From contig OZ020525.1 of assembly GCA_963971425.1 (NCBI GenBank), positions 7,237,560-7,301,559 on the forward strand: 64,000 bases of DNA, written 5' to 3'. The notes under the pieces were generated by a model. It did no database searches, was not told the DNA's origin, and saw only the letters and a list, made by a program, of their open reading frames with translations. Each line of letters begins with the position of its first letter. Position 1 is the first letter of the stretch. Below are positions 27,951 to 49,096 of the stretch, in pieces. The position numbers and the translations under genes are program-made. The stretch is from Bryoerythrophyllum caledonicum. Its lineage: Eukaryota > Streptophyta > Bryopsida > Pottiales > Pottiaceae.

Positions 27951-29498
27951 CCAGAATTAACCTTAAGCGAGCTCACCTAACTAGACCGTTTCCAGGGATT
28001 TTTATCGTGTGTCAAACTTTCTAAATCTAAGGACTATTCATACTCAATACCTCAGTACATCCAGGATGATGGCTTCCCCGGTACCCTAGTGACCGGTAAC
28101 AAGAAACCACAATTGTTTAATTTAAACTCTAACGCGCGTCAGAGTAGTTTTCTGGTAAGTTTTTACAGTGCCCGGAAAGTCACTGCCCTCTGTTTTCATA
28201 GCCCAGAGGCCACAGTCTCCACAACCTAGCTCTACACCATGAAAAAGCTAAAAGGTTGCAGCTAGTTCACCGGCCTTCAAAATCTACTGGAAATTAGTCC
28301 TGGTAAACTGATCACGCAAAGCCGGTTACGCAAAGCGGGATGCCAACTACAACCACATCCAATGAATCAAACAAAGAAGATACAAGAATCACAACAATCT
28401 AGTGCTAAGTAATTCACATAATCAAGACAACCTCCTACGGGGATCAAGGGATCTCATCCACTGTAAAGATTAAAAATCGTGAATACTCCAGACTCACGCT
28501 TAGCTGGGATCTCTCCCGGTCGGCGGTGTATCAAGAGGGGGGATGTCACCCTTTCTCTCTATCAATCCAAACACTTCCCACTAAAGGGATACTATAATAA
28601 ATAGTAGTGGGCTTCCCGAATCCCATCCAGTAAGCAACTCTACCCAGTCCAACCAATCTAAGGTTTGAAGTAGATCCCGGATCTTACTCTACCATCTAGC
28701 ATGGATATCATACTCCCTCCAGAAGCCTTAGCTCACATTCAACCACATAACATTCAACAAGCCACAACCTTGCACATCCTAGCAAAGATCCACTAGGAGG
28801 ACTCAACTCCCTCTTTTTCTACTCACACAAGCTCAACAATGGCTATAGACACAAGCAATGAATGCAAGACACAAGCAAAGCAACAAAGAGAAGAGTACTT
28901 AAACCAAGAGCCCAAGGTTCTTTAAGTACACAAAGGCCACTAGCTACCCTCCAAAAACTAGGTCCACAAAAGGTGGGAAACGACATCTAGATCCTAGAGA
29001 ATTGCCTAGTCACCGGCGGATTACCGGTTAGAGCGGTAAACTGGAAGACTCCCGGTCTGAGACCAGTAAAACATACTTTAACAAAAGTAGGTAGCCGGAG
29101 TATTCACTCAAGTGGTAGTGACCAAGTGCACAATGGGGCCCCATCGACATCACTACTCTCATCCTAGCGTTAATCTACCGCATCTAGCAACATCCTATCA
29201 ATCGATAGGAAAAATCCACAATAACATATAACATAGGCTTATGTGGAAGATCCATCCGGAAGAGTGGACTTATCTTCCGGTAGATCCATGGGAGGATTGG
29301 CTGGAAGATTGGAAGTATCCACGGGTACATAATTAAAAGAATCCACCGGAAGGTTGGAAGTCTCAATCGGGAGGTCTACCGGTAGATTAGGAGTATCTAC
29401 CGATATATTGGGAGTATCCACCAATACATGAGAAGTCTCCACCGGATCAACAACCATAGCTACCGGAGACTCAACCAAAGAATCCGTCTATGAGAAGG
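27951..29498. mobile_element. Left part of a CCGG-rich insertion (layer 2)
   Basis: Sequence style (frequent CCGG, 'accggtag', 'tccaccgg') changes abruptly from the DUF7869 relic and is shared with 48644-51370. The two parts flank the 19-kb element. I could not find LTRs or TIRs at the outer ends (about 27.95 and 51.37 kb), so the class is unresolved; an LTR retroelement fragment is possible. Confidence 0.55.
29239..29498 (-). pseudogene. C-terminal piece of a decayed gag-like reading frame (Val-Asp-Thr-rich repeats)
   Basis: A minus-strand frame encodes degenerate repeats of the type VDTPNLPVD. It opens directly at the left end of the 19-kb element. When the element and one AAAG duplication are removed, it is in frame with the minus-strand frame that ends at 48644. 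One in-frame TAG (29487-29489 region) lies just inside the junction. I do not recognise the protein family. Confidence 0.55.
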
Positions 29499-29502
29499 AA
29501 AG

Positions 29503-29530
29503 ATGCGACATTTAAGTAAATGTGGACTTT
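29503..29530 (+). repeat. Left terminal inverted repeat of the 19-kb element
   Basis: ATGCGACATTTAAGTAAATG followed by TGGACTTT; pairs with 48612-48639. Shorter repeats of 'TGGACTT' follow at 29542 and, inverted, at 48586-48610. Confidence 0.85.
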
Positions 29531-30128
29531 AAGATGAATTCTGGACTTAGGATCAATTCTTGATATAGGAAGCAAGATCATGAGATCATACGGTCTTACC
29601 ATTGGCATCAGGAATAATTTCAATAACTATAGGATTGAGCCTACACATTACGGGTAACTGCAACATTCACTTAGGGATGAAGTTTAAAAAGGCATCAAAC
29701 AATGTAGTGGAATCTGGCAATCAAAGATACATCGCTTACATAGTGAGATCCTACAATCTAACAACACATGTAGGGCAATCAATGTAGTACACGTCAAACA
29801 AAGAAGCATTCAATTAGGCGCAGAGAATGGGGGTATGAACCACTGACAACTTTACTTATAGAGTATACTGAACAAAAGTAAGCCGCTGAAGAACTGAATG
29901 TAGGGAAGCGGCTACATACTATGTATTACTCGCTTAAGATACATAGCGTACATAGTAAGATTCTACGGTCTAACAATACATGTAGGGCAATCAATGTAGT
30001 ACACATCAAAAAAATAAGCATCCAAATAGGCGTGGAGAATGGGGGTAATGACTATCAAAAAAATATATTCATAGAATAAACTGGATGAAATCGAACGCCA
30101 AGTTACAGAACTCAATGTAGGGAACCGA

Positions 30129-30758
30129 CTACGTACTTCGTAACACTCGCTCAAAGTGCCACGGTTCAAGCAGTCTACGATTAAACTTTACATCCATCGG
30201 GTGCCCCCGCAGATACTCCTTCACCGAGGCGTAAGATCGCAGCGGAAGGATGAACGGAAGCAACGCTGTGCCAATATTAGGTATTACATTGGATGTGTTG
30301 GGTAAGGTCATTTTACCATGCCATGACTTCGGAAAGTAGCAAGCGAGGTCTCCGTTGAAGACATGACGCATTGGCTGGTCATCAACCATCAATATTTTGT
30401 CAAGAAGACAGAACTGCTTCGTCTTCCGGTCCGTTGAGAGTCTCTGAAGAACCTTGTCACAGAAAAAATACAATTGTGGCCTGGAACACTTGTTTCGTCC
30501 ATAACAAAAAAAAAGTCTTGACCTTATGTCTTCGGGGAGGAGGACTTCAAGGACCTTCTTTAGGCGCGCGAGGACCATGGACGACCATATACCAACTTGG
30601 AAGGACCTCAGAAGTATACTGAAGAACTCTAGGAGACCAGGCCAAACAATGATGTTGTTCCGATTGAAGCGTCGCGGAGAGCAGTTATCGTATTGCTCGA
30701 AACAAAGCAATCCGTTGACAGACAACACGATAACTTTTGTCGAGTCGTCGCGTCGCTG
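30129..30758 (-). pseudogene. Second, degenerate FCP1/NIF-like phosphatase exon
   Basis: The frame opens after a good acceptor (..TGATCACAG, exon from about 30758) and runs to a stop at 30129. It has the layout of the FCP1-like HAD domain: KVIVLSVNGLL (motif I position), VGIWSSM (motif II) and KILMVDDQP (motif III), then YLRGHPM near the end. The neighbouring copy at 31159-31820 reads VVLDLNGFL, VVVWSCAM and LLIDDSPEK. The nucleophilic Asp of motif I is replaced by Ser here, so catalytic activity is unlikely. It may be an alternative terminal exon of the upstream gene or a tandem-duplicated fragment; I found no donor site that settles this. Confidence 0.6.
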
Positions 30759-33700
30759 TGATCATAGAGAAAGATAGAAGTTATAAACAACATCATGGAT
30801 CGTAGGATCCCACCACAGTGCCATCCATACTACAAACAAATCATCCATACAAGATCCTTAACTACTCCATCCATGAGGGTCGTAGGATCCTACTACACTG
30901 CTATCCGCATCACAAAGATCATACAACTGTATCCTTAACTACTACATTCCTCAGGGTCGTAGGATCCTACCACCCTAACGATAATTTATGGGAGATATTG
31001 AGATTAATAATATTCAAAATAAGATGATGGCCTCAATACTGAAGAGTGTCTCATAGAGTAGAGGTACATCCTACAAGTTTATATTGAAACAAAATATACA
31101 AAATATACACATCACCGATACGAGTGAGTAGTCATTGAAATGCCCCGACTTTGGAATTCTATTTTTGAGAACACCCAATTATGATGTTCTGAGCCAACGC
31201 AGTGGACCTAAATTCTCCAGGAACCGGACATCTAGGAAGGGGATGGTTACGGACATATTCGACCACAGAGAGATTTGAGGAAAACATATTTTCGAGCCAT
31301 GGAAGCATAGTGTTCATGAGGAACTTGTCCTTCAGGTCACCTGTCCACGTTCGAGGATGAATCGCACTGAACTCATCGTTGACGAGGTTCTTCTCCGGGC
31401 TATCGTCAATGAGCAATGTCAAACTGAGGTCTACATGGTCAACATATTTCCTGACGTTTTTGAGGTCCTTGAGCATGTACTTCTTCTCAACGTTGTTCCC
31501 CGCTCTCGGAAAGCTCGACTCCGTAATATCAGATTGTGACATAACTGTTAGGTCAACTAGCTTAACAGTAGAACTACCCAAAGCCACCTGTAACATGCTA
31601 TCGACATTTTTCCTCATGGCGCAACTCCATACCACGACAGTAGCCTTATTTGTGAGCACCTTCAGAAAATTTGCACACTCAGGTCTAGCGACAGTTTTAC
31701 GCCCCTTATCGTACGATCTGTGAATCAGAAATCCATTCAAGTCCAGCACAACAGTGTACCGAGGTTGCCTTACCTTTGCTGATCTAGGGGCTGATTTAAT
31801 GGCGGGTGCACTGAGTTTTCCTGCAGAAAACAAATGTTGCAAGAATGAGTCTCCAGTACAGAAAACAAATAATAAGTAGTAGAGTTGTCTAGAATCATAC
31901 CTTCTCTAGAGGAACCAGAGCCCTTATGTGCCACCAATAATGGAACCTTTTCACGACGTTGAGCAGTCCCCAACATCTCAACTGCCCAAAAAAAGGAGGT
32001 AATTAGTGAAGAATACACGACAAAAAAGCCATTCAGAATGCATATACATTACCAACATTCGAGACAACAGTGCTGGAGGATAGTAGGATCCTACCATCCC
32101 ATCAGAATGGTAGGATCCTACCATCTCAATAGGAACAAAAAATACTACACTCCCCAAAGCGATCGTAAGATCCTACGATGGCCGTAAGGATCGCCGATCT
32201 TGATATCCCCTAAGGATAATAGTGTGAATATAGAACATAAGAGATACACAGAAAACACTAAGATTGTTGAATTTAGTAGCTCATACCTTCTGCAGAGGTT
32301 CCTGCATCGGTATGTTGTGCGGATGGAGGACCCTTTTCAGCAGCATCAGCCTCAACATCAGGTATTGGGACGACCCTAAAGGTTGTTGGCTGAATTTCTT
32401 GACTGAAATTCAAAGGGTCATCCAAGTAGTCCTCAACAATAGGTGTATTCGAAACATTCCTAGGAGGGCTGAAGGCCTGTAGTGACTGACTAGCCTCCTC
32501 AAATATGCCTATGATAAGGTCCCTATCGAACGGCGCTTTACTTACTGGGGGTGAAACAGTCGGATCAATGTCCTGTAACGTAGCAAGTGTATTCGCGGCT
32601 AAGTGTTGCTCAGGATCCGTCGTAGTCTCCAAGTCCTGGCTGGAAGAAGGATGAGACGATGGTTCTAACTCCATCGGTGTAGGTTCGGACGACGGGGGAT
32701 GAAGCACGTCCGATCTTCTCAGCTTTAATGGTGGTACATTCGTGACGGTCATCCTGGTTTGAGGAGCAAGTAACTCTTCCTCCGCGAGCAACGACGCCTC
32801 CTCTTCTCTTCTTGTCCTTTCTTGATCTGGAACTGAACTCACCTCCAAAAGTTCACCTCCTCGACAACTCAGGACCTCATGGCACTCATTGGGCAAGTCG
32901 TTAAGTAGAGCCTGAAGGCTGATATCCTCTGCTTCATATATTGTGCTGACATTGACTTGGTGGATATCATGCATAAGAGAATCGCCATGACCGTAGACAT
33001 GCTCCGCCGCTGCTGAAGTAGACCGCACATAATCGTCATGAGAAATTTGGAAAAGCTACGGCCATTAAATAAGGTCAGTCAAGCTCTTGTCCCAGTTGGC
33101 AACTACTAACGAAAACCTGAACATCAAAATGGCTAAAAGGGGGTGTAGGACAAAGTGCGTTGTGCACGTAGAAGCATCTATGCATAACTACAACGATCAG
33201 AACCTGGTAAGAATAAATCTCTACAACGAAAGACGAGCAGGGACAGTAGGATCTTACAATCTTAAAGCACTCTCCGAGTAGTAACTGATGACTATATCGC
33301 GTAAAATGGATCCATCGATACATATATTCCAAGTTCTATAAACTACAAGCAGAGCAATGTTATTCATACTGGCCGCTCTGAAGATGAAGTACGTAGATGC
33401 CGATCATGAACTTCCTCAGTTCCCTGCATGGAGTTGGGATATGATGATGAATACAACGAATATGCAAACAGAAAATTAACCACAGTACATAGCTGATCAG
33501 TTCACATGGTTATTGTTATATATAATTGTCATAGAAATAGTTTGTCCGCTGAGAGAGATAAAAATAAGCGTGTGTATCATACAATGGTCGCCTCATGGGC
33601 ACCGGTTTGTGTAGAAGAGGGCGGAGTCAAGTTGATCTGCTCCTGGTTTTGCAACTGCAATCTTCGATGAGACTTGGACCTGCCCGAACGCCTGTTGTCC

Positions 33701-36700
33701 AAAGGTGGATCCTCCTCTTCGGTGTCCTCCGCCTCCACATCAGTGGCCTTCTCGGAGGGTGCCTTGTCCGAGTCGCTGGAGGAATCACTCTCGGAGCTGG
33801 ATACGGGTATGACCTTCTTCTTGCCTCTTGCGATCGTCTTTTTCTTCCTCTCGCTCACAGTCAAGGCTGCCATGGCAGGTACCGCTATTGCTAGCGTCTG
33901 AGCACTTTCCCAGATATCCTTCGCTGTCTCATCCGCTCTCATCACTTCATCCCTGGAGAAGACGACTTCGATGACTTGTGCTCCTTTAGTCTACAACACA
34001 GAGTGGTAGGCTATATTAGATGACAGGAAACAGATTCATACAATGTAAGGATAGCGTGGATAGAGAACTTGAACGAACTGAGAGATGAGGTAAAGAGATC
34101 GTAGGATCCTACAGTCATCTTACCAGGCCAATCCAGGTAATCGAAGGACCCCCACCGATGTTGACAATAAGATTGTTAGGAGCCCCCAATGTGCCAATCA
34201 ACTTGCTAACCGCGTCGATATTGAAATTGGCATAAGAATGTTGGGCCCATTATTTGGGAGCATCCTTGAAATCTGCTGCGGATATCACTGTCTGGAACGG
34301 CATCTCATTCCCAAAAGCAGATCGGAAGCACATTGCTTCAGCAGAATTGAAGTCGTTCCCGTACACAAAGTTGAAGTACAAGGGCAATGTTGGTTCCGGA
34401 GATGAAGGACTCGCGAAGCCCTGCGTCCCCTAGGTAATATATAAAGTGGGGGTATGAAACCAGGGTAGCGTTTGTGTAGCGACCGCGCCCCTCTCAGCTA
34501 CAACGTTGGCAACATCCACCATTCCAGCCCGATCTGTGATAAACACACCTGGATAACGGACCCTCCTGAACTGGTTATCATCCTTATGCTCCATGGCCTG
34601 CAGAGTACGCAAAACCTTTTCCATGATTGAAAAATCAGGTTTTCCTTTCTCTTTGCGATTGACAAAGCAGTACACCATAACCACCGTTGCATCCTTCTTT
34701 GTCCATTGCAGCATCTGGTCACTGCCCAACAGTAGAATCTTCGCCAGGTCTCCAGATTTCCTGTTCATCCAGGCGGATTTATATTTCGCAGAGAGCGACG
34801 ATCCGGAAGATGTTGGAGCGCTCTCAGCTCGATTCTCCTTGATGGCCTTCTAGTGATCGAAGAGCATCTTCAGAATAGTCGGAAAGTCATCCTCCTTGTT
34901 TGAAGGGGCTAAGGCGGATCCTCGCTTCAAGAAGAAGCGCTCTCCAGCAAGGTCCTTAATAACCTTCTCAAACCACGTTTCGATGGTGGCTTCGGTGACC
35001 TTGTACTCCGTTGCTGCCCTCACATAATCATCCTCATAATACGAGGCTTCCTTCAGTGTCTTACACCTCAGGGGCTTCTTACAGAAGTAGTGCATAAACT
35101 CATTCTTGATGAGTCTATGCTTCTTCTCAATCTGACACGCCTTCTCAAGGCCTTGAAGAACGGGTACCTTCTTAGCCGACTTCGTCGACTTCACCGAGAC
35201 TTTCTTCGCCATCACCAACTTCGCCATCTTCTCGATGTCACTATCCCACATGAAATAAAGTGGCATCAAGTCGTTCTGCTTTAGAGCCCTTGCCTGGTAT
35301 CGCTTCTGCTTCAAACGCTCCTTCCTGGACCTATCCTCGTTGTCCTCAACGTCATCTGCACAGTCCTCGTCAACACCTGAGACAAAGCTCGAAGTAATCC
35401 TGAATGCGCCGGGAAGAAGTCCAAGTACCCAGCTCTCCTGGATCTGTAACCAAATCTGGAAAATTGGCTTCGAAACAAATAGAAGCGGATATTTTGGGAT
35501 TCCTGGGTTGCTGTCCTCAACGATTTTTGAATCCGAGTTGGAAAATAGTGCCGGAAGTTTGTCAGACCAGGCCTCCAAGGATATCGGGAGTGAGAAGTGA
35601 AATACAAAAATTTGGAGATAGTAGGATCCTACGATCCTGACTACCATGTGGTTAATTGAGTTGGGATCGTAAGATCCTACGATCAGTTTATACCTTGTAT
35701 ATGAATCGGTAAGTCACACATTAACGTGATGGGTAATGTTCCAGTGACTCACCTTGAACTCATTGGAGTGCGTCAATCCATTCTTGGATGGACCTGGACT
35801 ACCGACTGAAACCCAACTCTTACGCGCTAGACCCAGAAGGGTAAGATAGTTGCCCTCTGATCTAATGCCAGCAAGATCTTGGTTGAGGACCCTTGAGTAG
35901 TATAGCATTAAGTTCCAGTCCTTGGGATCCTGCCAGACGATTGTTATGATGAAGCTCTTGGCATTTCTTTCATCTTCTTCCAAGAGACTACCCTCCTCAA
36001 TGAGGACTCTATGCCCAGCCACGCAATGTTGCCCGCCTATAACCACATAGTGTGTGTTTGGGCCGATGTCCTTCAATGTTGGTTGCTCCTTGAAAAACTT
36101 GTATGCATCGTGTGGCACGTCCTTGAAGTCTTCTTTCCGGACTGGATAATGTCCCTTCACTGGCATCACGTACAGATGCTGCAATGATGCCTGAAATGGC
36201 ATCGTGTGCTTCTGGTCTATGAGCTGTAATACTCGCTTATTATCCAGTGGTCGATAAACGACAGTACCGGGAGGAGCTCGGTGAAGGCGGTCAATGTCCA
36301 CTACCAGATCAGCGGGGTCCTACGGGGACACCTTCATTGGCTTCTTACCAAAAATATGGAGTTTCGAGAACTCTCTTTCGTACAGAGTCTTCACAAGCTG
36401 CAGCTCTTTTGCGGTTTTCCCTACGATGGTCTTGCTCGTCATCCCCACTGCCTTCCCTAGTGTCAGCTCGTCCACCTTCGGGTCTGACTTCTTCCTCTGT
36501 GACTTCTTCTTTGGCGCCCCCCCCGCCGCAAGAAGTGAAGACAACCGCTTCTTCTTAGAAGGTGTAGGCGGAGCTGCTTTCTGTCGGTCTCTATTGTACG
36601 AATCTCGATTCGCCTGCAGCTCCTTCCAGCCTTGCACAATCCTTCTGACGTCGGGATTAAAATTCGATATAGTGAATCCCCAGTCCTTGACCGATTCGTT

Positions 36701-37185
36701 TAGTGCAGGAACCAAACCTACTTTGTCAATGACTAAGCCATACACCCTGGAACAGCCCGAACTCCCCACAAACTCGGAGATGACAATTACAAAAATGGTG
36801 GCGGTCAGGTGCACTAACTCTAGTACTTCCATGTTCATCGTTGATAATTTGTATGAAGGACCTCTAGGAGCTGCGGCATTTGTAATAGCTAACACTGGCG
36901 CAATCAGAATGTTTTTTTGCTTGCGATCAAGCGTCCAATGAAGACCCCATTCCACAACTTTGTCGGCCATAAAGAAAGCGGTGGGCTCAGGATCCCTAAG
37001 TAGATTACATTCTATGTTCCTCAGCCCACACAAAACAGCATCATAGAGGTTCACAGGACACCAGTCGGGGTTCACGTCTTTGAGTTCGATGATATTTTCC
37101 CTGACCAAACCAATGCAGAAATTTAGTAGTCAGAAAAGAAACTTAGGTGTCAACGGTTTGCTTTCAAATCACGGGCAAGCATCTA

Positions 37186-37662
37186 ATTGAGGATCGTAAG
37201 ATCCTACCATCCTAAAAGGAATGGATAGTTCATACAGAACTTAGGGGGATCGTAAGATCTTACTATCCCATTCACCAATGGATACAGAAGAAGTTGTGAT
37301 ATCTAGAGTACACTGTGAAATGGATCGTAGGATCTTACTATCTCCAAGGGGACCTTTGGTTCAAGCAGAGCTGAGGGATTGCAAAAGATCATATGATCCC
37401 TCCAGGGGACCGTAAGATATTAGGATCCTGAACGGGATCGTATAATCTAACGATCCTGACTGGGATCGTAAGATCTTACGATCCTGAAATGGATCGTATA
37501 ATCTAACGATCCTCATGGGGATCGTAAGATCTTACGGTCCTCAAGGGTGTCGTAAGATCTTACGATCTCGAAAGGGATCGTATGATCTCACGATCCTTAT
37601 GGGGATCGTAAGATCCTACCATCCTCATGACGATGGTAGGATCTTACGATCCCCATGAGGAT
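37186..37662. promoter_or_regulatory. Dense cluster of the 20-bp palindrome in intron 1 of the left gene
   Basis: About 14 copies or half-copies of GATCGTA(A/G)GATC(T/C)TACGATC in 480 bp. The copy at 37464-37483 is a perfect palindrome. Spacing is often 25-30 bp. The cluster lies in the 1.5-kb first intron (38636-37101). Binding by a protein of the element is inferred. Confidence 0.7.
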
Positions 37663-38029
37663 CGAATGAACTTCAGGTGCACCTCAGCACCAATATACAA
37701 CTTATGATAAGTTTATGTGCATTTACATGTACAATAGATCTACATTGTATCGATTGTGAAAAGTTTGCATACCATACACATAACCCTAAATTGCATATCA
37801 GACTACAAGGGATTAACATACGTATCAATAAAATTCGATGAGTGTTATGACATTCATGCCATACTACAAGGCTTGATAATCTGAGGATGAGTACCAAAGC
37901 TAGAATACCATTCACATCATTCAATAGAGCTTGTATACCAAAGCATGGAAAGCCTTAGTAGAAAGTCATTGAAAAGATTGTACGGATCTAGCAATCTTTA
38001 CCTGAATCCTAAAGCTGAAACATTCAGCA

Positions 38030-38540
38030 CACACTACGCACCTTTTAAACCTAACATGAAAACCTGAATCTGACAATCATTCATAACATTCAACGCACCT
38101 TGTAAACCTAACACGAACACTTGAATCTAATTATCATTCATAACATACTACTCACTGAAAAAACCGAACATGCCAACCAGAATCTAACAATAATTCATAA
38201 CATACCACACACCTTGTAAAGTTTAAACCTAACATAAAAATCTCACTCAGACAATCATTCATAACATTCAACGCACCTTGTAAACCTAACACGAACACCT
38301 GAATCTAATTATCATTCATAACATACTACTCACTGAAAAAACCGAACATGAAAACCAGAATCTAACAACCATTCATAACATACCACACACCTTGTAAAGT
38401 TTAAACCTAACATAAAAATCTCACTCAGACAATCATTCATAACATACAACGCACCTTGTAAACCTAACACAAACACCTGAATCTGACAATCATTCATCAC
38501 ATACTACGCAGCTTGTAAAACTAACATGAAAACCAGAATC
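38030..38540. repeat. Higher-order tandem repeat (about 60-bp units, 179-bp period) in intron 1
   Basis: Units contain 'aatcattcataacat', 'caccttgtaaacctaac' and 'gaatctgacaatc'. The block 'actcactgaaaaaaccgaac' recurs at 38149 and 38328, a 179-bp period. Confidence 0.8.
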
Positions 38541-38677
38541 AGACAATCATTTGACATTATCCATATCATACTACAAATCATCTAAACCAGAACGCGAAAA
38601 AGAATAACTTAGTTCATTGAAAGGATTGAAACTTACGGGTCACTCCAGTCGCTTGCATTGCCGGATCGGCCTGTCAT

Positions 38678-39186
38678 CCTCGTGAATTGGTTGCCCTACA
38701 CGCTACACAAGACGTCGTGTTAGAAGCTCGTGAGTCACAGCAATACCACCTATTCAATGTCTAAAAAACATCGACAGTTGAAGAACTCCAAACAACTACA
38801 TTCTCCTTCCGAACATCCTCAGCTGGACAAAGACCTAAAAACACCAAATTTCTAATACATATCAACTGACCAGAGTTTCTATGAAGAAATTTTTACCTCG
38901 AAGTATTGTTTCTTGCAATGCGCCGCACTCTTTCGTAACGTCGCTTCCGCCAATCGCACCGGTTTGAAGTTGAAACTCCTTTTACACCGCTCACACCGCT
39001 CACACCGCTCACACACGCGCATACAGTCACAGTAATAACACTCACAAAAAATCACAAAACAATACTCACAACAAATCACGAAAAACAAAACAAGAACCTG
39101 AAGGAAGAAACCGAAAGTGAGATGAAAACAAGAACCTGAAGGAAGAGGGGAGGAGGGAGGGGGAGAGACAACGAGAAGTGTAATTG
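38678..39186. promoter_or_regulatory. Presumed upstream region of the left gene
   Basis: It lies directly 5' of the ATG at 38677. It holds a short CTCACACCG tandem at 38983-39015 and no other recognisable site. The transcription start is not identified. Confidence 0.35.
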
Positions 39187-39198
39187 ATGGTCGGACAA

Positions 39199-40138
39199 CT
39201 CCTCCACGACGGTTGAGTTGCTGTCTACATCAAGCTCTAATGATGCTTTGACTCATCATTACCATACGGTGAAGACTAATACGTCTAATAAAGAATTCAA
39301 TTTTAATTCAGAGTTTGGAGCTGAAAATTAAATTAAATAACAAGTTCTTTAGACTTCACTTCGTATGATATTCTTGCACTACACAAGCTCTAAATCTCTT
39401 ACCATTGTCTTAAGCATGAGATTAGTTCCCTACACACCAATTTTTTTTATTTCACTTCTTTCTATTCAATCTTTCATTAGACTTATTCTTTATTCTATTT
39501 CCTTATTCCACTTATTTCTATTCAATCATTCATTCTATTTCTATATTCTATTTTTTGATTCCACTTCTTTCTATTCAATCTTTCATTAGACTTATTCTTT
39601 ATTCTATTTTCTTATTCCACTTCTTTCTATTCAATCTTTCATTCTATTTCTTTATTCTATGTCCTTATTCCACTTCTTTCTATTCAATCATTCATTCTAT
39701 TTCTTTATTCTATTTTCTTATTCCACTTCTTTCTATTCAATCTTTCATTCTATTTCTTTATTCTATGTCCTTATTCCACTTCTTTCTATTCAATCATTCA
39801 TTCTATTTCTTTATTCTATTTTCTTATTCCACTTCTTTCTATTCAATCTTTCATTCTATTTCTTTATTCTATTTTCTTATTCCACTTCTTTCTATTCAAT
39901 CTTTCATTCTATTTCTTTATTCTATTTTCTTATTCCACTTCTTTCTATTCAATCTTTCATTCTATTTCTTTATTCTATTTTCTTATTCCACTTCTTTCTA
40001 TTCAATCTTTCATTCTATTTCTTTATTCTATTTTCTTATTCCACTTCTTTCTATTCAATCTTTCATTCTATTTCTTTATTCTATTTTCTTATTCCACTTC
40101 TTTCTATTCAATCTTTCATTAGACTTATTCTTTATTCT
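39199..40138. mobile_element. 940-bp insertion flanked by a 12-bp direct repeat, containing a 53-bp satellite
   Basis: ATGGTCGGACAA occurs at 39187-39198 and again at 40139-40150. Between them are a fragment related to the TTAA-type family (39352-39446; compare 53165-53290) and a long 53-bp tandem array. The 12-bp repeat may be a target duplication or a product of repair synthesis. Confidence 0.6.
39450..40138 (+). repeat. 53-bp tandem repeat, about 13 copies
   Basis: Unit 'ttccacttctttctattcaatctttcattctatttctttattctattttctta'-like; successive 'ttccacttc' starts at 39880 and 39933 show the 53-bp period. Three-frame openness of this array produces long artificial frames rich in Phe, Ser and Leu. 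Confidence 0.9.
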
Positions 40139-40319
40139 ATGGTCGGACAAAATTATGTGATGAAACAATACATAGCACTCGAGGAATTGGCAATACAGAC
40201 ATTTACTTTGTGTTGAAATTTATTGTTATTGAAGGCTAAATTCAACTTGATCATTGTTAAATCAAATTTCACATTCATGGTCTAGGAATTGATGTATACA
40301 ATAGTTATAATTCTCTATA

Positions 40320-40565
40320 ATTGTGTTGAGCTTGATCCACGGACACATGACAATTTTATTTTAGATCATTAGTGAACCTAGGTTTAGGGTTGAGAAATTG
40401 CAAAATGGTCATGTTATTTACATGTATGGTGTCATATTTAAGCATGATAAGCTTTAGATATTGAAATGACCCCCAAATGAAAGATTTTAGTTGAATCTCC
40501 AATGCAAAGGTGTATGTCTTGCTATATTCTAGTACATTTATTGTATGTTTAGTGTAAAATACGTG
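40320..40565 (+). repeat. Diverged copy of the 56.5-kb inverted-repeat arm
   Basis: Shares 'tacatgtatggtgt(c/t)atatt', 'atattgaa(a/t)tgac', 'ccaaatgaaag' and 'tccaa(t/a)gcaaaggtgt' in order with 56595-56720. Confidence 0.6.
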
Positions 40566-40639
40566 AATGTCTTATCCAAGCTCAACGAATCATTTATACA
40601 AGGATTTCTAGGATTATCCTAAACCCTGAATTTTAGTCC

Positions 40640-40995
40640 AATATCCTAAACGTGGAACCCCTAAAACTGAACCCTAAACCCTAAACTTGAACCCTAAATC
40701 CTAAACCCTAAACCCTAGCACCCTAAACCCCAGGACCCTGAACCCTAGGACCCCAAACCCTAGGACCCTAAATCCTAGGACCCTAAAACCTAGGACCCTA
40801 AACCCTAGGACCCCAACCTAACCACCATGAACCCCAAACCCTCAGGCTAAAAATCCCAAACCTTAATCTCTAATCCTAGAAACCTGAACCCCAAACACTG
40901 AAGCTAAGACCCCGAACCTAAAACCCTAAACCTCGAATCCTAAACCTAGAAGCTTTAGTCTGTTATCTTGTACCCTAAACCGTGAACCTAGAACC
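40640..40995 (+). repeat. Degenerate telomere-like (CCCTAAA)n tract
   Basis: Many CCCTAAAC, CCCTAGGA and CCCTGAAC units on the plus strand. CCCTAAA/TTTAGGG is the usual plant telomere repeat. The degeneracy and the internal location within a transposon make this an interstitial telomere-like repeat. Confidence 0.8.
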
Positions 40996-43739
40996 CTGAA
41001 CTATTTACCTAGTCTAATAGGTTAATGATTGTAACCATGACGAATTGTCGTATGTTCATGATTACTACTGAAACACGTGTGTTCTTCATGATCACTGGAC
41101 GTTGTCGTGTAGAGAGGGGAGCACCTTGAGAATTCGCAGGGAATCTGGCTGCGACTGGAGATTGTTTGCTCGGGAATCCAATCGTATCTTCAAATCTTCA
41201 GGTCTTCAGTCTCTAGTCTTCAGTCTTCAGTCTTCAAACTCCTCCCCGTTGGCCTATCCTGTGGTGGCTCTAAAGGGTTAAGGGTGAAGGTGGGTGATAA
41301 GAAACCACGACCTCGGACGGGTAAAACGGGACGGCCAGACCACAAGCTGAAACCGTCCGAAAGATTGGCTCCTAAAATTCAAACCCACGGTGACCAGCAA
41401 ACGTGCCTCACCGGTGGGAACGACATAAACACGACCGTGTGGGCAATTAACCCCACTTCGCCGCAACAGAGTTTACAAGAACAGAATTGAAATACAACTA
41501 GCCTCCAAAGTTGGCTTGGAATCACAAAAAAAGAAATCCGACCACAAGCCACAACACACTTGTCTCCATCTTCTCTTCTCTTCAAGTCAAGCCTCAAGTC
41601 TTCAATTCCTCCATCCTTCAACTCCAAAGTCTTCAAGTGTTCAAAAACACTAAGAAACTCAAAAGAAGTGTTCAAAAACACAATGGAAAAGTTTCACCAA
41701 AGCTGTAACCTTCAAACAAGTGACACAGATGACTCAAAACTTCAAATACTAAGTGTAATAGCTCTCTGGAAAGCTAATTCAGACAACTAGCACTCCTCCA
41801 AATTTCAAGTCAATCTAAACTACTGTCCGAAAGTTATGAACAATCAAAGTTCTGCCTACCCCTATTCATTCAGATCTCTATAACTTCTTGCTCACAACTC
41901 CGAATTTCAATCGTGATATCTTTCTAGAAAGCTAAGATAGAGACGCATACACCCTCCAAATCTCAAAGAAAACTAAGAACTACAGCAAAAGTTATAGCTT
42001 GTCAAACCTCTGCCTCTCAATGGATGGCCTCGGGTTTTCACAGAAAAACAAACCTTCATAACTTTTGCTACATAACTCCGAATTCAATTTTTGAAACGAG
42101 TATAGAAATCTCTGAAGACAAAGAACAAACCCTCAAATTTTCAATTCAATGCAAACAAAATGCGTTGAGCTACATACAGTCAAAGTTCTGCTCCAAACCC
42201 TTGCTCTCTCACCCGCACACACACACACACTCACTAAGGGATCTCTTTTCCAACTTTTCCACCCCAAGTGGATGTGGGCACTTCAGCCCATGTCACCCTA
42301 CCCAAAGTACCCTACAAGGTACTTCATCACTTTCTTATCCTTTCCACTTTCAACCACATAAAATCCCCTAGTCTTTTATTTATTGGAAGACTAAAAACTT
42401 AGACCTTCCAACCAACAAGATAAGTAAACTAAACAAATAACTAAATAAAAATAAAAATAAAACTTATCGTAAGATAGCTGATGGTACGGACGTATAAAGG
42501 TGTTGATTCGCACAACCTGATCGCCAAGTCGTGGACTTGGTTGGCTGGAAATGTCGTGGTCAGTGGCTGCCGCCGGTCCGGGTTCGAACCCGATCGAGCC
42601 CGTCGAGTGGTTGGGCGGCCCACGGCTTGGCTCGCTAGTGAGGCAGGAAAAATACCAGTCAACCCGCTACCTACCCCCCTGAGCAGTGACAAGAGCGGTG
42701 CAGCACCTACATGCTAACACTTGCCTAAATCCTCAAACCGTGGTTCTTACCACGACCAACCCCTTTTATCCCAACTCCTTACTTATTAAAACCCACACAT
42801 ATAAAGACTAATACTTGTATGTACATGATGGAAGAATTTCCATCAGGACAACGTTCCTACAATTCAAGAACAATTTCACTAAAATATTTTATCTTGTCTC
42901 CGTTGTTGTCATTTTCCGTCTTGGAAATAATTACATTCGAAGTGGCACTCGTACAGCTCTCCACGTCCTTGAAAATGATTGTGATTCTATCCCCGCCAAG
43001 GATTCAACCTATTCTTGATGAACTTCCCGCTCTCTTTAGATCAAGAAGAGGTTGCTCTGGTTTTAGTGTTCAAGCATTATGAGTTCATTTCCAGTAGAGT
43101 TTGAGTTTGAGAGAGTTGTATTTGCCCAAGAACTGAGAGCTTTGTGTTTGTTTCGAAGATACTTGGAGTTTGAGAGCGTCAGAAATGCGGTATCATCTTT
43201 GTGTTTAGTCGAGCTTGGGCTTCACCTACTTCAACACCTCTTCGTCATGTTCTGTCATGCTTAGGTAGCGAGCTTTAAGTTGTAAGCTCATCTTAACTTT
43301 CAAGTCAATGTGAGCGTCACATTTACGTCAATGTCAGCGTCACAATCACGTCGATCTGAGCTTCTCAAGTTGATCGAGCGCTTCATTGCTGCCCCGCTGC
43401 CAGTATTGATCCATCTCTCTCCGGTTTCATCACAATCTACGGTACTATCTCCATCCTCCACTTTCTACACATTAGGGTTTTCAAATATTTTGGAAATGCA
43501 AGTGCCGCGGTGGTTTTTAGAGTTGATGCTGTTGTAAGTGAGTCAGAATCATAGATTCTAAACTAATTCTAATCGTGAAAGTGCTGCGGTGGTTTGTAAA
43601 GTATTTGTTGTTTCAAATTTGTCTATATCATATTCAGTAAACTACTCATACTTGTGGTAGAATCAACTTTTGCCATTGCTTAAATGAACTAGTTCAGTAG
43701 CTATTACTGTGTTCGTAAACGTACTTTCCGTACATTCAT
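40996..43739. other. Unassigned central region of the 19-kb element
   Basis: No gene supported. Parts (41150-42100) have several near-repeats of 'cttcagtcttcag' and 'cttcaactccaaagtc'. A GC-rich stretch at 42500-42720 contains the perfect palindrome CGGGTTCGAACCCG (42587-42600), resembling a pol III B box, so a SINE fragment is possible but unsupported. Confidence 0.35.
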
Positions 43740-44180
43740 GATGATTGTACGATCTTGGGTGGTCCTATGATAATATCGGATGATGGTAGGATAGTACTAT
43801 CCTTGATGATCGGTCAGGGGTCATGTTAAGATCGTATGATCCTACGATCTATTTCGTGGTGGATGAAAACGGGCTTTGAGGGCAGCCGAGTAATCTGGAA
43901 GATCGTAGGATCTTACTATCACCGAGGACCGAACTCGGGTTCTGGAATGATCGTAGGATCTTACGATCTGTTTGGTTCGTTATTGAACGAGGAATGTGGA
44001 TTTTGTAGATAATCTCGGATGATCGTAGGATCTTACTATCGCCTAGGATCGTTTAGGAGTTACCGAACAATCGTAGGATCTTACGATCGATTTGTTGATA
44101 CTCTGGGATGATCGCAGAACCTGGAAATCAGGGGTGAGCTTGAAATCATGGTTCATCGTAGGATCTTACGATCTTGTGTC
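43740..44180. promoter_or_regulatory. Cluster of the 20-bp palindrome upstream of the DUF7869-type gene
   Basis: Eight or so copies, including GATCGTAGGATCTTACGATC at 43949-43968, with further copies near 43832, 43900, 44020, 44071 and 44155. The last lies about 110 bp before the start codon. A role as operator or transposase-binding array is inferred from position only. Confidence 0.65.
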
Positions 44181-44289
44181 ATCAGGCTTGATCTGAAGAT
44201 TTGTTTCTTACGAATTTTTATTCATCAGGGGGTCGAAGACCAGGGCTGATCGAAGGTTTATTGGATCCTTTTCTTTCCGGTTGCCTTCG

Positions 44290-47200
44290 ATGTCTTCAAG
44301 TTGCGGACCGGACGATGAGTTTACTGATTCTGCGAGCGTTAGCCCTGATGGTAAAGCCAATGACGAGCGTAACCGATATGAACCGGGCATGACTGCTTTA
44401 CTTTGCTACCCTGGACATGGCGTCATTGGACATGCCATTGTCATTGAAGCCGTTCCTACTAGGTGTTGGCTTGGCGTCGACATTGATCTCACGTTCGTGG
44501 AATTGACTCTTCTTCGACCTGTTGAGATACATGCACGGGCGCGAAGTCTACTCATTCATCCAATGCAGGAGGGCATCTCTGTCTTGGCTGAATCGATTGG
44601 TAGAACAATTCTCTGGGAGACAACAAGCCTTATCCTGACTTCGGACTTAGGCAAAACTTCTGGGTCGACAAACACTCCTCCTTTTGTACCTCAGGCAAAG
44701 TGGGTGGGGAAGGTTGTGAAGCGGTTTAACGGTGATGGGGATCTTATGGCCTTTGGTCGCATTAATTGCGTCTGTCCGGATGAGCCGTTCGAAAACAATA
44801 CTTTGGGGGAGGGGAACATTGGCGTCACAGTATTCGACATTTTTATCGGAGATCCTAGTGACATTATGAGTCATCGAAGGTGGCTCATTTCCGACTGCAC
44901 ATTCGAAGGAGGACATAGTCTTAGCGATACGCTCGACCATTTCAATCGTCTTCCTGACGCACCAGACGCGAATGCGCACCTTGGTGGCCGCCCAAAAGCA
45001 CCATACCGGTTTGTTCGTCGCAAAAAGCGGACTGACGAGAAGCTCAACGCGTTCGCAAAGAAGACAATGCCGGAAGAGATTCAAGCAGTGAGTTCGCAAT
45101 CATGTTGTTCTAACGAATGTGTGCGCTTAATCAGGCCCCAGGATACCCTTTTCATTCGCCAGAAGTTTTGGCTGAAGGACTTTGACGAACGCCGGGATTA
45201 TGCAAGGTCTGTGGGTGGACAACTACGCTATATGGGCAACAATCGGAAACGAAAGTATGTCACTTTACTAGGTCAGGATATCTGCGCTACATCGTGGTAC
45301 AAAATCCATGGCATACCGAAATCAACGTTTCACGAATATATGGACCAGTACAAGAAGGGTATCGTTTCCTCTACGCACGGGAACAAAGATGTCAAACGAC
45401 CCCGCCTTGGAACCGTGCAAGCACTTGGTACGATTACGGCTATTATCAATGAGAGTGCTGATCACATGCCCAATCAGATGAGGTTGACAGTACCAGGGCG
45501 GATGGACACTCTAAAGTTTCTGCCCTCTGGACATAGTTGGAAGAAGATCCAGGCTGACGCCACAGAGGTATTACTCCACATAGTACACCACATGAACCAC
45601 TTATCTGCATTCACGTGTACTTTAAGAACCTCATAGTCATGATAATGTCAAAAAAAACCCTCTATCTTTGCTCTATACATCTAGTTCATGGTAGGATCCT
45701 ACGATCGCCAAGGGTATGCTACAATCTTACAGTCCTCCCATTCTGTGGTTACCCTCAATCTGATTTTAGTTCAATTCTCACTGGGCACTCACCTGACGCA
45801 CTCAATGTTTTGACTCTTTTGCAGTTGAATCTACAATGCGGGTTGCCGGCGGTTTCGCAATCTGCTGTTAGTAGAATCAGGAGGGAGCACTTCAACAATG
45901 CTGCGGTTAAACCCATTGGGAGTTCATTTGCAAAGTGCACCCTCTGTGACACTCTATTGCAGTACATCGACAGATCAGTCAAGGGTTCCGCCGAATACAA
46001 TTCGTTCGTGAAGCAGAAACAAACCCACTGCAACCTCCAAGCTTCGTGTAGGCGTGTGTACCATACCTGGAGAGAGGAGTCGAAGCGGCAGAAGGGCGAT
46101 ATTCTTTGTATTATCCACGATAAAATGGATACAGCCAAGACAGCTATTCCTCGTATGCGAGTTTCTACCAAACTCACATCACCCTTGGGTCAGTTCCCTA
46201 TGAACGTCACTGGTATGGTCACGCACGGTCATGGAGATGGTGCCTATGCTCACTACTCCACTGACTTGTGGCCAGGAGACTCTAATTACACTATCTCTTC
46301 CCTTGCGAGATTGCTTCGGCGTCTCGAGGAACCACCCATTCGTGAATCAGGTAGAATTTTTCCCCATGAGCCGGCCAATTCTTTCTTTGAAGCTATGCTC
46401 AGAGGAAAGTCCAGATGTATTCAGCTCTTACCTCCGGTAACGAATAACTTGATTGTACCCATCCCCCTTCCAAAAAAGTTATATTTGCAGCTTGATAACT
46501 CTGCAAAGGACAATAAGAACCAATTTCTCATGGCGTTCTTATCGATGTTGACTTATCGAAGGGTGTTCAAAGAAATCCAAGTTGGTTTCTTATTAGTCGG
46601 GCACACGCATGAGGATATTGATGCTTACTTTAGCCACTTATCCAAGACCTTGAAGAGCCAGAATACTTATATTGTCGCGGATTTGATGATGTCCTTCACG
46701 CAGTCGCAAGATTTGGGTTTTATGCCTGAGTTCGTTCAAGAGGTTGCTGATTTCAAATCTTTCGTCCATGGTTATATTCGTGATGGTGCTGACAGACTTG
46801 TTGGCTTAGGAGAGATGCACCTCTTTAAATTCTACGTAGATGAAGAAGGGTGGCCCGTCATGCGATTTAAGGAACTTGCAGTTCATGCGCACTGGCTACC
46901 CAGAGACAAGCCTGCTATCCGTCTTTGGAAGGAGGATACTGACGGAAAATCGATGCTACCTTCCGGGCTCCCAAATCCTGTACCTTTCAGGCGGTTGTGG
47001 GGCGATGAAGTTCTTTCTTCCACAGGCAATCCAGAGAAGGCAAGAGAGAAGGTTTCCAAAGCCCTTGATAAGAGGTCGTTCATCAAGTGTGGAATTCGAG
47101 GTTATATAGAATTTTGGGAACGCGGGATGCTTGAAAGTATAGGCTTTCGTAAGGATTTTCCACCTTATATCGAATACTGGAATGGAATACTTGCAGAACT

Positions 47201-47747
47201 AGAGAAACCTCTTCCTCCCACTCCTGCGGCCTTGGTAGAAGGCTTCTGGCCAATTCATGATTGGAGAGCCACAGATCCAGCTCCATTGTGCCTCATTACC
47301 AGTGGAGATGTCACACCGGAAGATGACGAACCTGAACTTTATTGTGGCCCAAGGAAAGAGAGACCGAAGGACTCCTTGAATCCATGGCGAGATGTCGGAG
47401 CGGGATCATGGATCCTACTCCGTCCTTCTGACCCCGAAATATATCCCGTCTGGTTAGGGAGAGCGTGTTCAGCAGTCAATTGTGAAAGAGGGCATGCGGA
47501 ATATGGGAAGTTCATTATCCAATTCTGGGAGCCAAGAAATCAATTCAAAAACCACAAGAAGAAGTATGAGGATTGTTGGGCAGCAACGTGGGTTCCGGAA
47601 AAACGACGTCCACTTCAAGTTCATGTTAATGCCGTCGTATTTGCCTCCGCGTCAGGTAGAACGAACCCTAAGACTCGGACGATTCCAAAGAGGGACCGAA
47701 TTGCAGCATTGGCTAACCTTGAAGCTGCAAACGTGGCAGACCCTTGA
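44290..47747 (+). CDS. DUF7869-type protein, putative transposase of the 19-kb element (two exons)
   Basis: Exons 44290-45567 and 45825-47747. The donor is CAGAG/GTATTA and the acceptor TCTTTTGCAG/TTG. Both exons are phase 0 and together encode 1,066 aa without a stop. Residues about 325-350 (LLGQDICATSWYKIHGIPKSTFHEY) look like the family's helix-turn-helix region. Then come a CTLC motif (about 464), HDKMDTAKT (D about 528), YLQLDNSAKDNKN (D650) and VGHTHEDIDAYF (E689). These invariant acidic positions suggest an RNase H-like DDE core, though that is inference. Residues about 948-1025 (GSWILLRPSD .. YPVWLGRA) resemble the BAH/tudor-like C-terminal module of these proteins. DUF7869 itself is, to my knowledge, functionally uncharacterised. 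The start at ATG 44290 is chosen because the frame upstream of it begins only with a TTG. Confidence 0.85.
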
Positions 47748-48611
47748 TGGTATTAGGGTCCTCCAGCAATATCGTAGGATCCTGCGACCTTCACCTCCTC
47801 GAAATCCTATGTCTTTGCACAATACGACTTATGATCTTGTAGAAGTTTTCCAACAAGATAGCACAGTTTTCTCATTTCTCGTCTTTTTCTTGAACTCTTC
47901 CAGCAAGATAGTAGGATCCTACGATCCTGCTGCTCCTTGCTGTCTATGATAAATGTTTACATCTATTTTAATTATAATGCATTCAATTCGACGTTGTCAT
48001 TAATTGTCGACAATGTATGAGCTCTCTTCAGATATTTTTGATCCTATCGTTAACTGCTAGCCTGGTGCGTTTCTTTCCTACCATTTGATGCAATTTAAGC
48101 AGTACTATTATTTGGTAATTTCCTTAAAACTCTTCCAGCGAGATAGCAGGATCTTACGGTCCTACTTCTTCTAGCTGCCTATGTAAGATGCTCACCTATT
48201 TGATAACTTTTATACATAAACCTAGGCGATGTCATAATTTCTTTATAATGTATTACCCCTCAAATACTTCTATTTTTGCTGGAACTGCTTACATGCTACG
48301 TTTGTTTCTCACTGTAGATGCAATAAATACATTATTCTTCTCACTTCTACTACTACTAATAATTGGTGATGGTAGGATCTTCCTAACCTGTGATGCAAGG
48401 TCAGTTCTACTATGATTCTCCTATCCTTGCAAGGTCACTTGCTACATCACACATTCCTACAATTTATCAATTGTTTCTCTTGTGAAGCTTCTAACTTTCA
48501 AAATTTATTGACCATCTTTGTTAGATCATAGGATCTTACAAAGCACCTCTATATCATATTTCGTTAGATTTTCCTTCAATAAATCTGGACTTTGACCAAT
48601 CTAGACTTTCA
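47748..48611. other. 3' non-coding region of the 19-kb element
   Basis: AT-rich, with five spaced copies of the 20-bp palindrome motif (near 47771, 47907, 48142, 48368 and 48524) and no gene. The paired short blocks 'tctggactttgaccaatctagacttt' near 48586 precede the terminal repeat. Confidence 0.6.
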
Positions 48612-48639
48612 AAAGTCCAGATTTACTTAAATGTGGCAT
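48612..48639 (-). repeat. Right terminal inverted repeat of the 19-kb element
   Basis: Reverse complement reads ATGCCACATTTAAGTAAATC then TGGACTTT; pairs with 29503-29530. Confidence 0.85.
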
Positions 48640-48643
48640 AAAG

Positions 48644-49096
48644 ATCAATCGGTTCTTCTCCGGGAGGATTTCCCGGGAGACATCATTGCCTCTTATAGAC
48701 TTTCACACCCGACTCCGTGGAAGATGGAGGATCCGCTCTACTCATTGGACATTGAGTGGATGGATCATCACCTTCTGAAGAAAGAGAACTGGTACAGACA
48801 AACTTTATCTTCTTCCAGGTTGGGCTTTGGTCTTGCATTGGTATGGTGGCACTCATTCGTCCAACAAGCAACTTAGTTAGTACTACCATAGTCTCCTCTA
48901 CCTTGATCTTCGTGTCAAGGTGCTCCTTCAGGGATGTCCGGAGATCCCTCTTCACTTTGGTTAACTGTTCCTGAACCTCCCGAGCTATAGTTAAAATGTC
49001 TCCAGTGTTTTCTACTCCAAACACCTTTCGGAGAGCCCTCTGAAGACTCCTTGCCTCCAGAAGCTCCATCTCCATTTGCTGGACATCGTGGGTCAC
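48644..49096 (-). pseudogene. Gag-like coiled-coil reading frame, interrupted by the 19-kb element
   Basis: The minus-strand frame has a predicted coiled coil (EMELLEARSLQRALRKVF .. VQEQLTKVKRDLRTSLKEHL) and a Ser-rich tail, with a TGA at 48680-48682. The same frame stays open beyond that stop to the insertion at 48644 and continues in register at 29498. I do not recognise the family; gag-like is a guess from composition. Confidence 0.5.

Follow-up and report, generated by a model that had tools for sequence, protein, structure and literature searches.

The DNA analysed here is a stretch of 64,000 nucleotides from the moss Bryoerythrophyllum caledonicum (C14:7237560-7301559, referred to below as the window), part of a genome of 437 Mb in 894 contigs. 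Positions 29503-48639 of the window hold a complete DNA transposon. The element is bounded by 28-bp terminal inverted repeats (TIRs), which are identical at 26 of 28 positions with two mismatches. The left TIR, ATGCGACATTTAAGTAAATGTGGACTTT, lies on the plus strand at 29503-29530 and its boundary is common to other copies; its inverted copy occupies 48612-48639 on the minus strand and forms the right end. Outside the TIRs sits a 4-bp target-site duplication (TSD), AAAG, at 29499-29502 and 48640-48643, which is present as a single copy at uninterrupted sites. A first-pass annotation of the window had drawn these boundaries, with imperfect TIRs and AAAG on both sides, and its coordinates were exact on re-reading. 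With up to three mismatches allowed, 100 shuffled versions of the window contained a mean of 0.00 matches to the 28-bp end. The termini read ATGC and do not match the CACTA/G type. The size of 19.1 kb first assigned to the element is correct for its ends, but 1.75 kb of this is a nested insert (41104-42850), foreign to the element, flanked by the 5-bp duplication ACGTT and missing in all nine other copies that were fetched. The insert appears to be solo-LTR-like (long terminal repeat) and to have arrived after the transposon; given its absence from the other copies, the element proper measures approximately 17.4 kb.

Within the element we find the divergent pair of large spliced genes that had been proposed, with splice sites predicted by eye and with a script. 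The plus-strand gene has two exons, both open in the window copy, of 426 codons (44290-45567) and 640 codons (45825-47747). DUF7869 was the only Pfam match at E ≤ 0.01 in the 34 homologues of its product that were scanned, with no match of the Mutator (VANA) type. The protein is predicted to adopt an RNase H transposase-like fold with a conserved D-D-D triad (D at 46119, 46494 and 46614), followed by a weak C-terminal SH3/MazF-like fold; a family missing from the fold listings is not thereby ruled out. The earlier suggestion of an RNase H-type transposase agrees with this predicted fold and triad, and DUF7869, a domain of unknown function, gains a likely role as a DDD transposase. Among 87 homologues, the named ones that score best belong to Physcomitrium and Ceratodon; the liverwort Riccia supplies more distant ones. 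A scan of prokaryote genome contigs returned three loci, all in metagenome-assembled bins, of which one is a clear match (38% identity, E 1e-114); eukaryotic contamination is their probable source.

Gene 2 is a predicted multi-exon model on the minus strand that runs from 37129 to 31159, possibly with one more exon to 30129, and would encode a long protein. It begins with exon 1 (35753-37129, start approximate) and an exon-2 zone (34124-35599, start approximate) that holds a conserved domain of unassigned fold. Further predicted exons follow at 33577-33990, at 32283-33055 (an acidic linker) and at 31889-31980 (a small exon), and then an exon with a NIF/FCP1-like phosphatase domain (31159-31821; DLNGFL, DDSP). 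The segment at 30129-30761 is either the last exon or a separate gene and carries a second, degenerate NIF/FCP1-like domain, in which the nucleophile Asp is missing (VNGLL). Pfam scores of 1.9e-15 and 2e-5 for the two domains uphold the FCP1-phosphatase label of the first-pass annotation, though the catalytic motif is altered. The gene is broken in the window copy by several premature stops, one in exon 1 and others in the exon-2 zone, and stops interrupt at least one gene-2 exon in all seven copies with exons inspected, from ten copies fetched.

The label 'ParB-like', which exon 1 had also received, finds no support. No ParB match was obtained by hmmscan against Pfam (nine proteins) or NCBIfam (eight proteins). 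The Pfam ParB_N profile (PF02195) gave no genome match at E ≤ 10, where gene-2 exon 1 gave 151; as a positive control the same profile matched in 11 of 14 genomes, and a sequence search of this kind could miss a very remote relation. A gene-2 profile compared with PDB sequences returned three weak, unrelated matches (E 0.12-0.6) and a broader alignment none, and the structure model of exon 2 was uninformative (predicted local distance difference test score, pLDDT, of 36). ParB-methyltransferase fusions occur in bacteria. The end of exon 2 together with exon 3 (NIGGGPSITWIGL-TKGAQVIEVVF) may resemble the last motif of permuted N6/N4 methyltransferases; we treat this as a lead only, and the two spliced segments that were scanned had no methyltransferase match in Pfam.

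The window element is a multi-copy TIR transposon with 4-bp duplications. A 19-bp end motif, ATGCNACATTTAAGTAAAT, has 144 exact matches in the genome (74 + 70), compared with 0 + 0 for the reversed-pattern control. Among the first 100 matches listed, 19 neighbouring +/- pairs lie less than 100 kb apart, and in 14 of these the distance is 16-21 kb. We read 16 of these 19 pairs and the window copy, 17 copies in all, the unread ones being three wide pairs (65, 81 and 83 kb). An exact 4-bp duplication was present in 16 of the 17 (AAAG, CTTG, ATGG, ACTA, ATTA, ATTG, GCAA, TCAT, ATAT, TTAT, CAAA, GTGT, AAGT, GTGT, ATGA and CATG), whereas copy E1 (C1:13997761) has no duplication. In two of the 16 the ends are 31 and 63 kb apart, presumably through nested insertions.

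Uninterrupted target sites were also found. When the flanks of the window element were joined over a single AAAG, 40 uninterrupted places were recovered at 85-91% identity (40 scored of 296 candidates), and three of these were read through the junction. For a second insertion, E2, 38 of the 40 scored matches (252 candidates) cross the junction at 80-88% identity; the remaining two correspond to the flanks of E2 itself, whose overlap is precisely the four duplicated bases. These matches indicate that both insertions landed in repeats whose empty form persists. The first-pass annotation had pointed to further copies with the same ends and 4-bp duplications, and to empty sites, as the check on its proposal; the former were found in number and do not refute it, and the latter were found for these two insertions. 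The target of the window element (flanks 29433-29502 and 48640-48713) is itself repetitive and recurs at no fewer than 40 other genomic places.

The transposase matches in the genome form two groups, copies of 86-97% identity and copies of 73-81%. Six 3' ends in the second group terminate in ...GTGGCAT or a near variant. This group is a sister family with a transposase approximately 75% identical and ends nearly identical to those of the window family. Its end motif, ATGCNACATTTAACTAAAT, has 73 + 71 genome matches (control 0 + 0). Of ten pairs picked by eye among these matches, eight have exact 4-bp duplications and the other two show a single mismatch within the four bases. A sister element at C1:42.57-42.59 Mb was retrieved in full; it measures 16,640 bp with CAAT at both sides, and its gene 2 has the same order of segments, with identities of 57% for the exon-1 segment, 49% for exon 2, 53% for the NIF domain and 74% for the last domain. 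A further DUF7869 frame (L091:7551-8876) lies just beyond its left end, which shows that elements can adjoin one another. Both families are frequent on contig C1 (65 Mb, 15% of the genome), which holds 80 of the 144 end motifs of the window family and 87 of the 144 of the sister family. Among the matches listed, this contig has no end motif, transposase or gene-2 match below ~12.4 Mb. C1 may represent a chromosome rich in repeats, perhaps a sex chromosome, one arm of which is clean over 12 Mb.

Gene 2 accompanies the transposase in both families. A genome search with the exon-1 segment gave 151 matches, of which 150 were listed and used, with the best candidates scored, and 63 rows of transposase matches were resolved into 61 places (one split copy merged, one fragment dropped). 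At 38 of the 61 (25 of 37 close and 13 of 24 sister copies) a gene-2 match on the opposite strand lies upstream at a distance of up to 30 kb. The other arrangements served as controls and were found once (upstream, same strand), never (downstream, opposite strand) and once (downstream, same strand). We also compared nonsynonymous (dN) and synonymous (dS) divergence between the window gene 2 and 14 further copies, chosen for the most part because their frames are open (13 of them; the other has a stop). In 13 of the 14 comparisons dN was 0.35-0.52 with dS saturated and changes mostly at third positions, and in the remaining one (70% identical) dN was 0.16 and dS 0.55; ratios between close copies were noisy (0.17-1.02). 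From the opposite-strand linkage and the pattern of divergence, gene 2 has long belonged to these elements and is maintained by selection. Judged by these substitutions, it is under purifying selection between lineages.

The third component is a palindrome, GATCGTAGGATCCTACGATC, which the first-pass annotation had recognised as private to the element. With up to one mismatch in its 12-bp core it occurs at 23 sites inside the element (30802-47922) versus none in the remaining 44.9 kb of the window; at two mismatches there are 33 sites inside and one outside. None of the 23 lies wholly within predicted coding exons, which account for 45% of the element. The ten fetched copies carry 19-25 sites each, the E1 piece being incomplete. 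Upstream of gene 2, variants of the palindrome form a 28/84-bp tandem array (37385-37664), and the long central region beyond it (38021-40120) contains tandem arrays of 57-bp (38021-38551) and 53-bp (39442-40120) units. A degenerate CCCTAAA array, similar to plant telomeres, is present at 40659-40951, and the sister element is rich in a similar motif. Genome-wide, the 16-bp core of the window palindrome has 268 sites (control 0). Of the first 50 in the list, 33 have a listed gene-2 match within 15 kb, where a uniform distribution would give 4.5%, and 17 have none at that distance.

Related elements have different palindromes. The sister element carries GACCGGAGGATCCTCCGGTC, with 15 cores at up to one mismatch and 39 exact 20-bp sites genome-wide (control 0). 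In a 9-kb piece of a third lineage, where gene 2 is 48% identical, we found GATCGGGWGCGCACCCGATC at 24 sites with up to four mismatches; at up to five, 20 sites form a cluster of 900 bp that lies upstream of its exon-1 segment. Each of the three lineages has its own 20-bp palindrome in ~15-25 copies. All three start with GAYCG, and none was recovered in the other two sequences at up to two mismatches. The window and sister palindromes have a common centre, AGGATCCT, and if four mismatches are allowed the window 20-mer has 10 sites in the sister element. The pairing of palindrome type with gene-2 clade is not strictly one-to-one: the window core is also found near gene-2 copies that are merely 50-55% identical, while the other divergent lineages carry palindromes of their own.

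Taken together, we think it likely that this is a giant (16-21 kb) TIR transposon, probably of the Sola superfamily, with a DUF7869 D-D-D transposase and a second gene that encodes a palindrome-binding accessory protein. The transposase would cut at the TIRs and insert with a 4-bp stagger; the duplications and empty sites are observed, and the chemistry we infer. The number of palindromes, their confinement to the element and their divergence between lineages would suggest a lineage-specific factor that recognises its own 20-bp sites in non-coding DNA of the element. The foremost candidate for this factor is gene 2, because it is conserved along with the palindromes, which are frequent around it, and its product may be a sequence-specific DNA-binding accessory that reads them. 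Such a protein could act against DNA methylation by the host, in the manner of VANC in VANDAL elements, or regulate how the element is expressed. The stops in the 63 rows of transposase matches are mostly TAG (97, with 49 TGA and 36 TAA). TAG-rich decay fits a methylated target, since deamination of CHG cytosines would give it, and the excess is a possible sign of such decay. More tentatively, gene 2 might be a new, independently evolved anti-silencing or nucleoprotein-organising factor of giant bryophyte transposons, with specificity for the lineage's own palindrome in introns and intergenic DNA, whose FCP1-like domains would modify chromatin or transcription at element copies alone.

It is also possible, if doubtful, that the palindromes are the transposase's own sites, comparable to subterminal repeats, and that gene 2 is a captured host gene carried along. 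Several observations weigh in this direction and against a palindrome-binding gene 2: when the element is divided into tenths, the outer ones hold five of the 23 palindromes and the one upstream of the transposase holds six, the NIF domains resemble FCP1-like phosphatases, and the gene is broken in the window copy. However, the palindromes spread over the gene-2 half, its inter-exon gaps and the transposase intron and do not cluster by the TIRs, and gene 2 has been selected across several lineages with its position and order kept, unlike a chance capture.

The superfamily assignment rests on a separate comparison. Bao 2009 is said to be the original paper on Sola. In the available portions of later accounts, Sola elements have a DDD transposase, a 4-bp TSD, TIRs of 11-1124 bp and a length of 2-9 kb, in some cases above 15 kb, and occur in moss (PMC10741241); a Sola1 of Physcomitrella appears in a review table (PMC9033089). 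Our elements share the 4-bp duplication (exact in 16 of 17 window-family and 8 of 10 sister-family copies) and the predicted DDD triad, and their 28-bp TIRs and 16-21 kb size fall within the published range. Since the DDD triad, TSD, size and moss host all match, we class the element as probably Sola, most probably a bryophyte branch, an assignment based on described features. A superfamily distinct from Sola strikes us as rather unlikely: DUF7869 had no mention in the literature searched and the likeness is one of description, but the triad, TSD, TIR length, length above 15 kb and moss presence all fit the available portion of PMC10741241, and the Physcomitrella Sola1 is listed in that of PMC9033089. 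The first-pass view of an undescribed system is thereby weakened for the kind of transposon, because a DDD transposase, 4-bp TSD, length above 15 kb and moss occurrence were already reported for Sola (PMC10741241, in the portion available). It stands for the two-NIF accessory gene and the lineage-specific palindrome arrays, which go unmentioned for Sola in the same portions of both sources (PMC10741241, PMC9033089) and look to be the new part, as far as the literature searched reaches.

The large size and more than one gene might recall a virus-derived or Maverick/Polinton-type element. Mavericks have a 6-bp TSD, DNA polymerase B and a retroviral-type integrase. Here, the duplications are 4 bp, ten window and nine sister-locus open reading frames (ORFs) gave no polymerase or capsid match, no integrase-type Pfam match was seen among scanned ORFs, and no transposase relative emerged from a pattern-based scan of viral contigs, so that we regard such an origin as very improbable. 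The idea that inverted repeats flank a host gene pair by chance, for which nothing beyond the single copy could speak, is refuted for practical purposes by the many copies that share their ends, by the duplications and by the uninterrupted target sites.

Among other known systems, ParB/parS is similar in having a private multi-copy palindrome beside a dedicated gene, but gene 2 has no detectable ParB similarity. En/Spm (CACTA) elements encode TnpA and have subterminal motif repeats, CACTA ends and a 3-bp TSD. They resemble the present element in combining two element proteins with repeated binding sites, which are putative here, and differ in their ends and TSD and in the subterminal position of the sites, which here are spread through the element. 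The best analogy for gene 2 and the palindromes is the VANC anti-silencing system, from which a function can be suggested. According to the available portions of the published work, VANC of Arabidopsis VANDAL elements binds short motifs in the non-coding parts of its own family and removes methylation there, and these motifs differ between related families and are often in tandem repeats (PMC5735166, PMC10398659). The same portions describe a transposase (VANA) beside an accessory gene (VANC), and a family-specific short motif in many copies, mainly non-coding, partly in tandem and differing between relatives, all of which have a counterpart here (PMC5735166, PMC10398659). In contrast, the transposase family is a different one, the accessory proteins have no known relation, and the motif is a 20-bp palindrome known from sequence, where binding and demethylation are known for VANC. 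The element is a giant plant transposon that combines a long-standing second gene, maintained by selection, with private palindromes that diverge between lineages. Should these palindromes be the targets of an element-encoded factor, they would provide a tractable second case of methylation escape without harm to the host, testable in mosses; and if gene 2 is an anti-silencing factor, the VANC strategy would have arisen twice without common descent, this time in another transposon superfamily and another plant lineage.
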